DNA of 64,000 bases, from assembly GCA_949300515.1 (NCBI GenBank), contig CASGEP010000005.1:1-64000 (forward strand). The letters are read 5' to 3'. The position numbers and the translations under genes are program-made. A model generated the notes under the pieces. It ran no database searches. It was not told the DNA's origin and worked only from the letters and a program-made list of their open reading frames with translations. Of the stretch, positions 40,476 through 43,747 are shown piece after piece. This stretch comes from an uncultured bacterium. Its GTDB lineage: Bacteria > Cyanobacteriota > Vampirovibrionia > Gastranaerophilales > Gastranaerophilaceae. Positions within the stretch are counted from its first letter, which is position 1. Every line of letters starts with the position of its first letter.

Positions 40476-41268
40476 ATGCGGGCATTTTTACGCTTTTTAC
40501 CTCCTTTTTGATGTCAAAAAAGAGTTTTGCGCTTTTTTTAAATTCATCGGGGTCGCCCGTAACATAAAAGTCAATGTCGCCCGTATCGTTTGTGTTTTTT
40601 ATAAATGAGCGGATATTTTTTGCAAGGCTGAGCGCAGGGTTGAAAAAAATATCCCTTGGTACATAGAGCGAAAACATATCAAGAAGGTAGGGGTAGTGCG
40701 TACAGCCCAGAATTACCCTTTTTGCTTTGTTTTCAAGGATAATTTTCATTTTTTCCTTGACGGCTTTTTTGCTTTCATCCAGATTGTAGAGCCTGTTTTC
40801 GACTATTTCCACAAATCCGGGGCAGGGTATTTCGACAACTTTTAAATTCGGGTTTACTTTATTTATTTCATTTGTGTACTTTTTACTCTTCGCGGTGGCT
40901 AAAGTTGACAGCACGCAAATACAATCCCCGTCATCAAGCCCGCAGGCGGCAGAGTATGCCGCACTTTGAATAAGCGGAAAAATCCTCAGCCCCTTCGGGG
41001 TAAATTCTTCTCTTAAATCGTCATAAGTCAACGCGGATGTTGTATTACAGGCTATCGCAATGTCTTTTACGCCGAGTGTCAAAAAGAAGTTTAAAATATT
41101 CCTGTTAAAAAACAGTATTTCCTCTTTTGTTTTGGAGCCGTAGGGCAAATTTGCCGTGTCGCCAAGGTAGATGTATTTGGCGGATGGCAAAACTTTTACA
41201 AGTTCGGATAAGACCGTTAAGCCTCCGACGCCTGAATCCATTACTCCTATTGTGTCAGAATATGTCAT
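40462..41268 (-). CDS. murI: Glutamate racemase
   Basis: The 268-residue enzyme supplies D-glutamate for peptidoglycan. Catalytic cysteines are in AIACNTTSA and LGCTHYPYL, and the conserved Asp is in DSGVGGLTVL. GDTANLPYGSK is a further family motif. The start overlaps the end of the amidase gene by 4 bases, making a two-gene cell-wall operon. Confidence 0.95.
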   Translation of the reverse strand: MTYSDTIGVMDSGVGGLTVLSELVKVLPSAKYIYLGDTANLPYGSKTKEEILFFNRNILNFFLTLGVKDIAIACNTTSALTYDDLREEFTPKGLRIFPLIQSAAYSAACGLDDGDCICVLSTLATAKSKKYTNEINKVNPNLKVVEIPCPGFVEIVENRLYNLDESKKAVKEKMKIILENKAKRVILGCTHYPYLLDMFSLYVPRDIFFNPALSLAKNIRSFIKNTNDTGDIDFYVTGDPDEFKKSAKLFFDIKKEVKSVKMPAFSQV

Positions 41269-43223
41269 TTTCTTGATTTCAAATACTCCATTATCCCATC
41301 AGCAAGAGATTTTGCAATTTCTCCCTGCCTTTTTTCCTTTATAAGCTCGCGTCTTTCGTTGGGATTTGACAGAAATCCTATTTCAACAAGTATGGCGGGA
41401 GCGTTTGTGTGATTTATAACATAAAATTTAGACTGAAACAAGCCCCTGTCTGTCGTTTCCCATTTTGAGAGATTTTTGGACGAAGCCATTTTTTCGTGGA
41501 CTTTTTGGGCAAATTCAAGACTGTGCGGGTGATACCAGTGTGTTTCAAGCCCTATTATATCTTCTCTTACGGTTGAGTTAACGTGGACACTTATAAATAC
41601 ATCAGGCTCTATTGAATTTGAAAAGTCACTTCTCTCGCTTAATTCCACGGTTTTATCTTTGTCGCGCGTCATATACGTAAATACATCCTGCTTTTTAAGC
41701 TGTTCTTCAAGCAGTTTTGAAACGCTCAGGGTCAAGTCCTTTTCGTATATATTTTCTCTTGTTGCGCCGACGTCAGAGCCGCCATGACCGGGGTCAATTA
41801 CAACACTGTAAAGCTGTTTTATGGTAGAGGGGCGTATGTTTTCTTTTTGTTCTTCTTTTTTGGGAGGTGTTACGCTCGGCGCTTCGGGTTCGGTTTTGAC
41901 CCTTTTCTTAAAATATATTCTAATTTGCTTTGCATCGGGCGAAATTTGCGCGTTTATTGCCGTTGAGTCTTTGAGGGCGAATGTCACCCTTGTTTTTTCC
42001 GTAGCGATTTTTTGTGCGGTAATTCCGCTGTAGTCAGGGTTTTCATGCAGTTTATCAAGCGCCTGTTGATTAATGTCGTTGACGTTTTGTAAATCCAGAT
42101 AAAATTTTAAATTTTCCTCAAAAGTTGTAACGGAGGCGGGGTTTGTGAGGGTGATATTTACCACATCAAGGTTTTCGCCCGCGTTTTTTGCTTCATAAGA
42201 AATTACCTGACTCGTTGTTTCCGTTAATTTGGCGTTAAGTACATCTGTTCTTCTTGCAATAAAAAGACCCTGTAAGTCGGGCGAGAGAACTAATCTGTAG
42301 TCTTTTGCGTTATCCCCCTGAATAACCAGCCGTGCCGTTGTCGGGGTATTTTGCCCTATTCTTAAAATTTCCCGCTGGGTAACAACCCCGTTTACAACAA
42401 GCGAAGATGAGTTTGGGATGGTAAAACTCTTGTTTCTCAACTCTTTTGCCACATTTGCGTTTTCTATGTCGTAAACTGCCCTTAGCGGGTTTTCAAGGAC
42501 AAAAGAGTTTTTCAGCGAAACATGCCCGCTCCCTTTTAACATCAGACCCGTTTTTAGAGTGTCTATAGAGTCAATATAGAAAAGGGATTTTAACTTTGTG
42601 TCTTTTTCCTCTGTTTTTACTGTTTTATACTTTGTTTCGGCCGTATTTGAAACATCGATTATTTTTTCTTCCGTTTCGCTTGAATAGGTTGCAGCCTCAA
42701 GAAAATCAGCGTTTCTCTCCCCCGTTGTCATGTTATTGTATATTGTTTTAAATTTTTCGCTTGCAAGGAGAGATTTGGAGTATCTTAAAATTATTTGTCT
42801 GTCGTTTGCATATACGGCAAAGTCTTTCGGGTCGAATTTGTCGTTGTATTCAAAAACAATCCTTACGGTATGGGGGTTTGTTGAAAATTGCGAGATTTTA
42901 ACGGTATTGACCGAGGAGTTTTTAAGAGTGTATATTTTTTGATTTCCCGTTAATATTGCATTTGAAATGTCTACAAAGACTCTGTCAGGACTGCCGAGAA
43001 AACATTTTGTAATGACGTTTTCGGGTGTTCTTACGCTTTTGTCGTTGTCCTCGGGTGTCTGCATTGTTTTTGGGAAAATTTTTCCGACGGATTTTATAAT
43101 CACAAGGTTGTCCGAGTTATCAAATTCAAGCCCCGTTATTTTAATGACAGGTGCTGCCTGTGCACAGTATGTGAAGGCAAAAAACATTAAAAAAGCCAGT
43201 ATGAATTTTATAACTTTCCCCAT
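41265..43223 (-). CDS. AMIN-domain N-acetylmuramoyl-L-alanine amidase
   Basis: The 652-residue protein has a signal peptide (about 1-23, ending TYCAQAAP), a long region with AMIN-type beta domains (about 25-150 and further copies up to 430), and a zinc amidase domain (Amidase_3, about 465-650). Catalytic features are VVIDPGHGGSDVGA, YEKDLTLSVSK, SVHVNS and ILVEIGFLSNPNE. It cleaves the peptide from murein, mainly in daughter-cell separation. A GAGGAGTT site precedes the ATG. It is coupled to murI. Confidence 0.93.
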   Translation of the reverse strand: MGKVIKFILAFLMFFAFTYCAQAAPVIKITGLEFDNSDNLVIIKSVGKIFPKTMQTPEDNDKSVRTPENVITKCFLGSPDRVFVDISNAILTGNQKIYTLKNSSVNTVKISQFSTNPHTVRIVFEYNDKFDPKDFAVYANDRQIILRYSKSLLASEKFKTIYNNMTTGERNADFLEAATYSSETEEKIIDVSNTAETKYKTVKTEEKDTKLKSLFYIDSIDTLKTGLMLKGSGHVSLKNSFVLENPLRAVYDIENANVAKELRNKSFTIPNSSSLVVNGVVTQREILRIGQNTPTTARLVIQGDNAKDYRLVLSPDLQGLFIARRTDVLNAKLTETTSQVISYEAKNAGENLDVVNITLTNPASVTTFEENLKFYLDLQNVNDINQQALDKLHENPDYSGITAQKIATEKTRVTFALKDSTAINAQISPDAKQIRIYFKKRVKTEPEAPSVTPPKKEEQKENIRPSTIKQLYSVVIDPGHGGSDVGATRENIYEKDLTLSVSKLLEEQLKKQDVFTYMTRDKDKTVELSERSDFSNSIEPDVFISVHVNSTVREDIIGLETHWYHPHSLEFAQKVHEKMASSKNLSKWETTDRGLFQSKFYVINHTNAPAILVEIGFLSNPNERRELIKEKRQGEIAKSLADGIMEYLKSRK

Positions 43224-43378
43224 AACTCCTCATATTAATAATAACACTAACTTGTTTTTATAGCCAATAATGCAAAGTAAATTTTTTTAAATTGCTTTAT
43301 TGGTCATGCTTTTTGACTTTTGCAAGTAAAATTTTCTTCATTAAGTTTGTAAATTTTAATTTTTCCTATTGTTTTCTC

Positions 43379-43433
43379 GGGGCATGGTCAATTGTAAAAA
43401 TAAATTAATATTAAAAACATTGCCCATGCTCCC
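43379..43433. ncRNA. Candidate structured RNA element (long hairpin)
   Basis: The arms GGG-GCATGG-t-CAAT and ATTG-c-CCATGC-T-CCC pair over 13 positions, with one bulge and one mismatch, around an AT-rich 26-base loop. It is far more stable than its surroundings. Either strand could be the transcribed one: it may be part of a leader for secD (plus) or for the amidase gene (minus). No family is recognised. Confidence 0.35.
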
Positions 43434-43533
43434 GTTTTGGTATTAGATGGTAACAACAAGGAATTGAGAATACTTCATTGAAAGGAGTGGTGGCATAGTA
43501 TTTCGGTGTTTAGGTCACTAAAATAACAGAGGA

Positions 43534-43680
43534 ATGAAAAAAGAGAATTTTAGATTATTAACAACAAAAAAAGTTTGAAAAAAGGCGGCGAACGCTGCTG
43601 GACTTGAAAAAGAGGAAAAATTACCGCTTCCCGTGTGGGGCGGTTTATTTTTATATTGCTTAATCGGGCTAATTTTGTAA
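43534..43680 (+). pseudogene. Possible small membrane-protein gene with in-frame TGA
   Basis: From ATG 43534 the frame reads MKKENFRLLTTKKV, then TGA (43576-43578), then KKAANAAGLEKEEKLPLP and VWGGLFLYCLIGLIL before TAA. If TGA were Trp, the product would be a 48-residue basic protein with a C-terminal membrane helix, plausible next to secD. The ribosome site (AGAGG) is too close to the ATG, and the 3' half coincides with a possible terminator hairpin. It could equally be chance in T-rich DNA or a short leader peptide. Confidence 0.25.
43623..43650 (+). terminator. Possible terminator or attenuator before secD
   Basis: ACCGC/GCGGT plus CCC/GGG around a GTGT loop (two-base bulge) is followed by TTTATTTTTAT. 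It lies about 100 bases before secD and could end an upstream small RNA or attenuate secDF. Confidence 0.5.
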
Positions 43681-43747
43681 ATTTATTAGGCTCTTTTTTA
43701 TTTTTTTGTTAGAATTTATATGTAAATTCATATAAGGACATTAAGAG

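Follow-up and report, generated by a model that had tools for sequence, protein, structure and literature searches.

What is encoded in the 524 bases that separate an amidase gene on the - strand (41265-43223) from secD (43748)? The gap lies in a stretch of 64,000 nucleotides (hereafter the window) of contig C5 of a Gastranaerophilales (Melainabacteria) genome bin of 1.72 Mb (G000). An earlier note, made from the sequence alone, had delimited it exactly (43224-43747) and had read it as a structured small RNA or as a leader through which secDF could respond to export stress. That note recognized no RNA family in the gap, which agrees with Rfam, as the whole window gives 0 matches at the gathering score and lax filters return chance-level matches only (best E 0.2), hence the region is not assigned to any Rfam family.

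One unit in several neighbourhoods

A predicted promoter block, a short core and a predicted terminator keep together as a unit that is almost always single-copy and stands in several gene neighbourhoods, as shown by comparison of sequences across the order. When the gap served as BLAST query, 32 of 39 relatives had a match (E <= 0.01), among them all 14 genomes of the same genus; in the family's other genera, even the best matches are confined to ~43329-43412 of the window. Of 241 genomes of the order, 202 match a sequence-only model of the upstream block (R1; Table 1), once each except for two genomes with two matches, and all R1 matches of this search fall in the window's family (f1). Seven genomes that belong to the order but not to f1 yielded one weak match (G037, E 0.004), which was discarded, as were two extra weak matches in G193; the core motif is absent from all three. 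Seventeen listed f1 genomes have no R1 match. In G016, G022, G107, G110 and other members of genus g35 (f1), the match to the promoter block is absent or weak. Genomes of f1 of either kind could have lost the block, or their copies could have drifted beyond the model.

A pattern derived from the block retrieved at least 116 stretches from the named genome collection, which together with the first BLAST set make up 134 loci, 119 of them unique (among the matches listed). Among these listed matches, the next gene downstream is an anmK-cluster gene at 73 and secD at 19 of the 134 loci, a count in which some genomes present in both sets figure twice; the remaining loci are followed by other genes or by a contig end. 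The block precedes secD only in the window's genus, and elsewhere mostly anmK: six loci of other genera (L016-L021) have no secD or amidase match, and anmK is the next gene in five of them (L016-L020). The small RNA of the earlier note is thereby supported, in that promoter, terminator and body motif recur jointly across one family.

Two features of the neighbourhoods were noted in passing. At 75 of the 134 loci, among the matches listed, a conserved gene of ~310-340 aa is divergent from the RNA gene (L017:454-1467 and relatives); it has no Pfam family at 1e-5 and is a possible regulator of the RNA promoter. A WYL regulator had been considered for the upstream neighbour of the anmK type and was dropped, as no Pfam family was obtained at 1e-5. 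The RNA's terminator and the anmK promoter (TTGC, 17 bp, TATTAT) seem to share sequence at L017, L043, L048, L054 and loci like them; the promoter's -10 element lies about 9-15 bases 5' of the ATG, which suggests that the anmK mRNA may be leaderless there.

Predicted promoter block and RNA body

Table 1. Predicted and conserved features of the gap between the amidase gene and secD (positions in the window).
Feature	Position	Strand	Basis or remark
Conserved upstream/promoter block, ~140 bp	43315..43456	+	Sequence-only model R1 against the window's genome: 71.7 bits, E 7e-20
CTTCATTAAG, near-palindromic, putative activator site	43336..43345	+	Conserved across genera
Inverted repeat (long hairpin), overlapping -35	43378..43434	.	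Arms 43378-43394 and 43419-43434
GGGGCATGGTCAATTGTAA, putative regulator site ~60-75 bp before the start	43379..43397	+	BLAST, before any pattern was used
Predicted -35 element TTGCCC	43420..43425	+	Same offset and 17-bp spacing across loci
Predicted -10 element TTAGAT	43443..43448	+	TTTGAT in most other genus members
Predicted noncoding RNA, ~195 nt	43455..43650	+	Promoter offset and terminator; 15 genus members aligned; no conserved frame
GAAAGGAGTGGTGGC, extended match to the 16S 3' tail	43480..43494	+	Hallmark GGAGTGGTGGC at 43484-43494
TTATTAACAACAAAAAAAG, A-rich element conserved in the genus	43555..43573	+	Similar stretch in divergent L206, L209 and L211
GCTGCTGGA, second recurrent motif GCTRCYRGA	43594..43602	+	Recurrence across bodies
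Predicted intrinsic terminator	43623..43653	+	Stem 43623-43644, then T-rich
secD's own upstream region	43667..43747	+	Retained where the RNA is separated from secD

The RNA start is placed at about 43455, give or take a few bases, by a promoter that, as predicted from its sequence, is of sigma70 type and probably activator-controlled. TTG-type -35 and -10 elements, 17 bp apart, stand at the same offset in 94 of the 119 unique loci (among the matches listed). The argument for the promoter rests on conservation; a generic promoter scan of the window did not list the -35/-10 site at 43420-43448. Selection of loci by the pattern forced some invariant promoter columns, and the invariance of ATTAAG in the pattern-found set is partly forced, since ATTAAG belonged to the search pattern. 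Further upstream, CTTCATTAAG and GGGGCATGGTCAATTG are putative factor-binding DNA sites, and the 17-mer core of the block is mostly unique within its genome when up to two mismatches are allowed, with no sign of a regulon.

The long hairpin to which the earlier note had drawn attention exists as an inverted repeat, and a 67-nt stretch containing it folds better than shuffled sequence (z -3.2, P 0.015), but it lies upstream of the predicted start and is poorly conserved even in the genus. P falls below 0.05 in 4 of 15 members (L001, L007, L011, L013), L014 has lost the 5' arm, and over the 119 unique loci the hairpin region has a mean z of -0.42, with 14 loci below -2 (among the matches listed). 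A conserved RNA helix at 43379-43439 was rejected on the count of 4 in 15 and the lost arm, and the repeat, which overlaps the -35 element and ends before the predicted start, is more plausibly a dyad in promoter DNA than a transcribed hairpin.

The RNA itself is probably noncoding, to judge by its reading frames, none of which is conserved. Among the matches listed, bodies are 83-420 nt long with a median of 242 (96 of 116 bodies in which a terminator was found), and their mean purine content is 63% over 116 relatives, against 46% in the upstream block; the window's own body, which the earlier note had rightly called purine-rich, likewise has 63%. The GC-rich hairpin followed by T-rich sequence is also present as that note described it. 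A terminator-like site occurs in 96 of the 116 related bodies (among the matches listed), and this conservation is the better evidence for a terminator, since pattern alone is expected to yield 1.3 such sites per 1.6 kb.

The idea of an RNA structured overall did not hold, as the fold is no better than that of dinucleotide shuffles (z -0.50 for 43370-43660 and z -0.63 for the body), and the region as a whole was rejected as a structured RNA. Conservation in relatives, which the earlier note had proposed as a check, is strong in sequence but does not extend to base-pair covariation. In the fold of the genus, the main long-range helix joins the core to GCTRCYRGA (10 pairs, 150 of 150 cells paired); there it has no double changes, and shuffles equal it. 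The same helix was rejected family-wide, where 12 of 130 cases reach P <= 0.05 and the mean energy is -6.3 kcal/mol vs -6.0 for shuffled sequence (among the matches listed), so that with energies this close to shuffled ones the pairing fits the genus and is not supported across the family. A stem enclosing the core (GGAC/GTCC and others) is suggestive only, with 20 of 98 cases at P <= 0.05 (among the matches listed). In predicted folds, the unpaired fraction of the core (0.53) is only slightly above that of the whole RNA (0.47), and the core exceeds the mean of its own RNA in 68 of 114 cases (among the matches listed).

The conserved core and the 3' tail of 16S rRNA

The core is recognized by a hallmark, RRGTGRTGGY, which took no part in any search that found the loci. 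By strict pattern it is present in 110 of the 119 unique loci, and the nine misses comprise three contigs that end early, five loci one flanking letter off and one locus (L115) without it (among the matches listed); in 1.37 Mb of flanking strand it turns up 3 times. Among the divergent loci that were found by R1 alone and judged real, 17 of 18 have the core. At the 18th (L203), it reads GGAGTGACGGT, with ACG replacing RTG, ~150 nt after the start of the block.

The core matches the 3' tail of 16S rRNA, which reads ...GGATCACCTCCTTTCT in six genomes of the order. This tail, used for all pairing estimates, comes from families other than f1; a search of 24 f1 genomes, G000 included, yielded no 16S 3' end, which is expected to read CCUCCUUU in f1. 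Predicted pairing of core and tail has a mean energy of -15.6 kcal/mol (sd 0.8, n=133 RNAs), a uniformity that is partly favoured since the hallmark pattern selected the loci. Elsewhere in these RNAs, 20-mers give -4.8, and 485 putative gene starts give -5.0; the core is the best-pairing 20-mer of its RNA in 129 of 133 cases (all among the matches listed). An energy of -15 is reached by 1 of 516 ORFs, even when the best start within the first 60 codons is allowed, and by 34 of the 42,008 20-mers in a quarter of the loci retrieved, a number that may include copies of the element. The window's own core pairs at -15.3, its secD start at -4.8.

Two registers keep a perfect 16S match of at least 8 nt, namely GAGGTGAT in 91 RNAs and (A)GAAAGGAG or AGAAAGGAG in 25; the other 17 of the 133 consist of one with a longer run (GGAGGTGAT) and 16 with shorter ones (among the matches listed). 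RTGGY, the 3' half of the hallmark, is conserved beyond what the 16S match explains.

Proposed docking on the ribosome and competing explanations

On sequence comparison, we give about half of our confidence to the reading that the region is a free-standing noncoding RNA gene, the product of which would dock on the anti-Shine-Dalgarno sequence of the 30S subunit and thereby restrain translation or protect itself. A sigma70-type promoter would start the RNA near 43455, the RNA would end near 43650, and the core would hold it on 30S subunits. An RTG only a few nucleotides from the paired Shine-Dalgarno bases is too close for normal initiation. The docking would be non-productive, since RTG lies too near the paired bases and is followed by no conserved frame. 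Two outcomes can be envisaged: docking could compete with mRNA loading and so restrain translation while the promoter is on, or it could shield the RNA from 5' exonucleases, leaving its remainder free to act. Ribosome docking is favoured as the conserved function, with neither outcome preferred. A narrower proposal, that the sole conserved job of a dedicated, promoter-regulated RNA retained throughout the family is to occupy the anti-Shine-Dalgarno sequence untranslated, as a 30S-parking device or translation brake with two interchangeable registers, is put forward tentatively and with clearly less than even confidence.

If ribosome docking is true, these gut bacteria, known here from genome bins, would possess a family-wide noncoding RNA aimed at the mRNA-docking site of the ribosome. 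Promoter block and core would then provide a sequence handle on translation control in these cells, and the family would offer a natural test of whether anti-Shine-Dalgarno docking without initiation is a regulatory device. Among the listings of a literature search, none described an RNA of this kind in the Gastranaerophilales group. A partial parallel is SprF1 of Staphylococcus aureus, described in its report as binding ribosomes via a purine-rich 5' sequence and lowering initiation (PMC8938821). A purine-rich segment that could make such a contact is present here as well (63% purine, with a core predicted to pair with 16S rRNA). SprF1 additionally serves, according to the account in PMC10579593, as antisense antitoxin to SprG1, as part of a system located in a prophage.

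It is possible, though on the unlikely side, that an independent regulatory RNA acts mainly by base pairing or through another protein, and that the core is no more than a 30S-bound stabilizer in its 5' part, comparable to STAB-SD. This would account for the other motifs that are kept, namely GCTRCYRGA or close variants in 73 of 116 bodies (0.06 expected per body from dinucleotide shuffling; among the matches listed), the A-rich element and, in the anmK type, GATTAGGGAT. It also has a precedent, as STAB-SD of the Bacillus cry3A mRNA is reported in PMC4113751 to bind the 16S 3' end without initiating. Like STAB-SD as presented there, the core is a Shine-Dalgarno-like 16S match near the (predicted) 5' end of an RNA, and in the anmK type it can sit >100 nt into the RNA; unlike STAB-SD, which that source places in the untranslated leader of a protein-coding mRNA, it is followed by a predicted terminator and no conserved ORF. 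Against an RNA acting by base pairing, the body outside the core varies quickly in sequence and in length (83-420 nt among the matches listed), and a search of 39 genomes detected no Hfq, although it missed the cyanobacterial control as well.

That the gene is instead a tiny mRNA, in which a Shine-Dalgarno sequence and RTG GCN open a short peptide, is unlikely. GC or GT follows RTG, and the first base of RTG varies between A and G as in start codons, but in the GGAG register the paired Shine-Dalgarno bases are only 2 nt from RTG. Moreover, among the matches listed, a stop follows RTG at a median of 5 codons over 110 loci and is the second codon in 23 of them, frames differ between close relatives, and ACG stands in for RTG at L203.

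CsrB/RsmZ sponges are independent genes whose upstream control is conserved while their GGA-rich RNA evolves fast, and the putative RNA of the window resembles them in all of these respects. CsrA, the protein that such a sponge would titrate, is found in 28 of 39 genomes, including that of the window and 14 of 15 in its genus. A sponge of CsrA is nevertheless very improbable as the shared function, since five carriers of the RNA (G015, G018, G020, G021, G023) have no CsrA match and GGA is barely enriched (842 observed vs 771 expected from dinucleotides; among the matches listed). ANGGA was observed 346 times vs 300 expected (among the matches listed), and per 100 nt it is not lower in five CsrA-negative loci (1.36) than in 13 CsrA-positive ones (1.00). 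The csrA gene of the window's genome lies at G000:C6:50265-50420, and several other f1 genomes have no match, a patchy retention within the family.

The leader of secDF that the earlier note had in mind is hardly credible. secD is the next gene in 12 of 15 genus genomes, and, as with VemP and SecM, the RNA precedes a sec gene, though in one genus only; outside that genus the sec linkage is absent and the same unit mostly precedes anmK, or stands at other loci. The RNA has its own predicted terminator, no arrest-peptide frame was seen in it, and an additional ORF lies between it and secD in three of the 15 genus genomes, G005 (L008), G014 (L009) and G002 (L012). At these three loci, the secD-proximal bases remain 95% identical over 81 nt (L008), 93% over 97 nt (L009, from 43652) and 88% over 77 nt (L012) despite the intervening ORF, as would follow from an upstream region that belongs to secD itself. 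As a minimum consequence, the region should not carry a secD-leader annotation. A diverged form of a housekeeping RNA (6S, RNase P, tmRNA or SRP) is equally implausible. It would fit the nearly always single copy and the absence of a detected 6S in G000, but that genome has its RNase P RNA, tmRNA (partial, at a contig edge) and SRP RNA at other places, and in G004 a 6S match below threshold (39.7 bits) sits on a contig other than that of the element, 6S being detected in 7 of 16 genomes.
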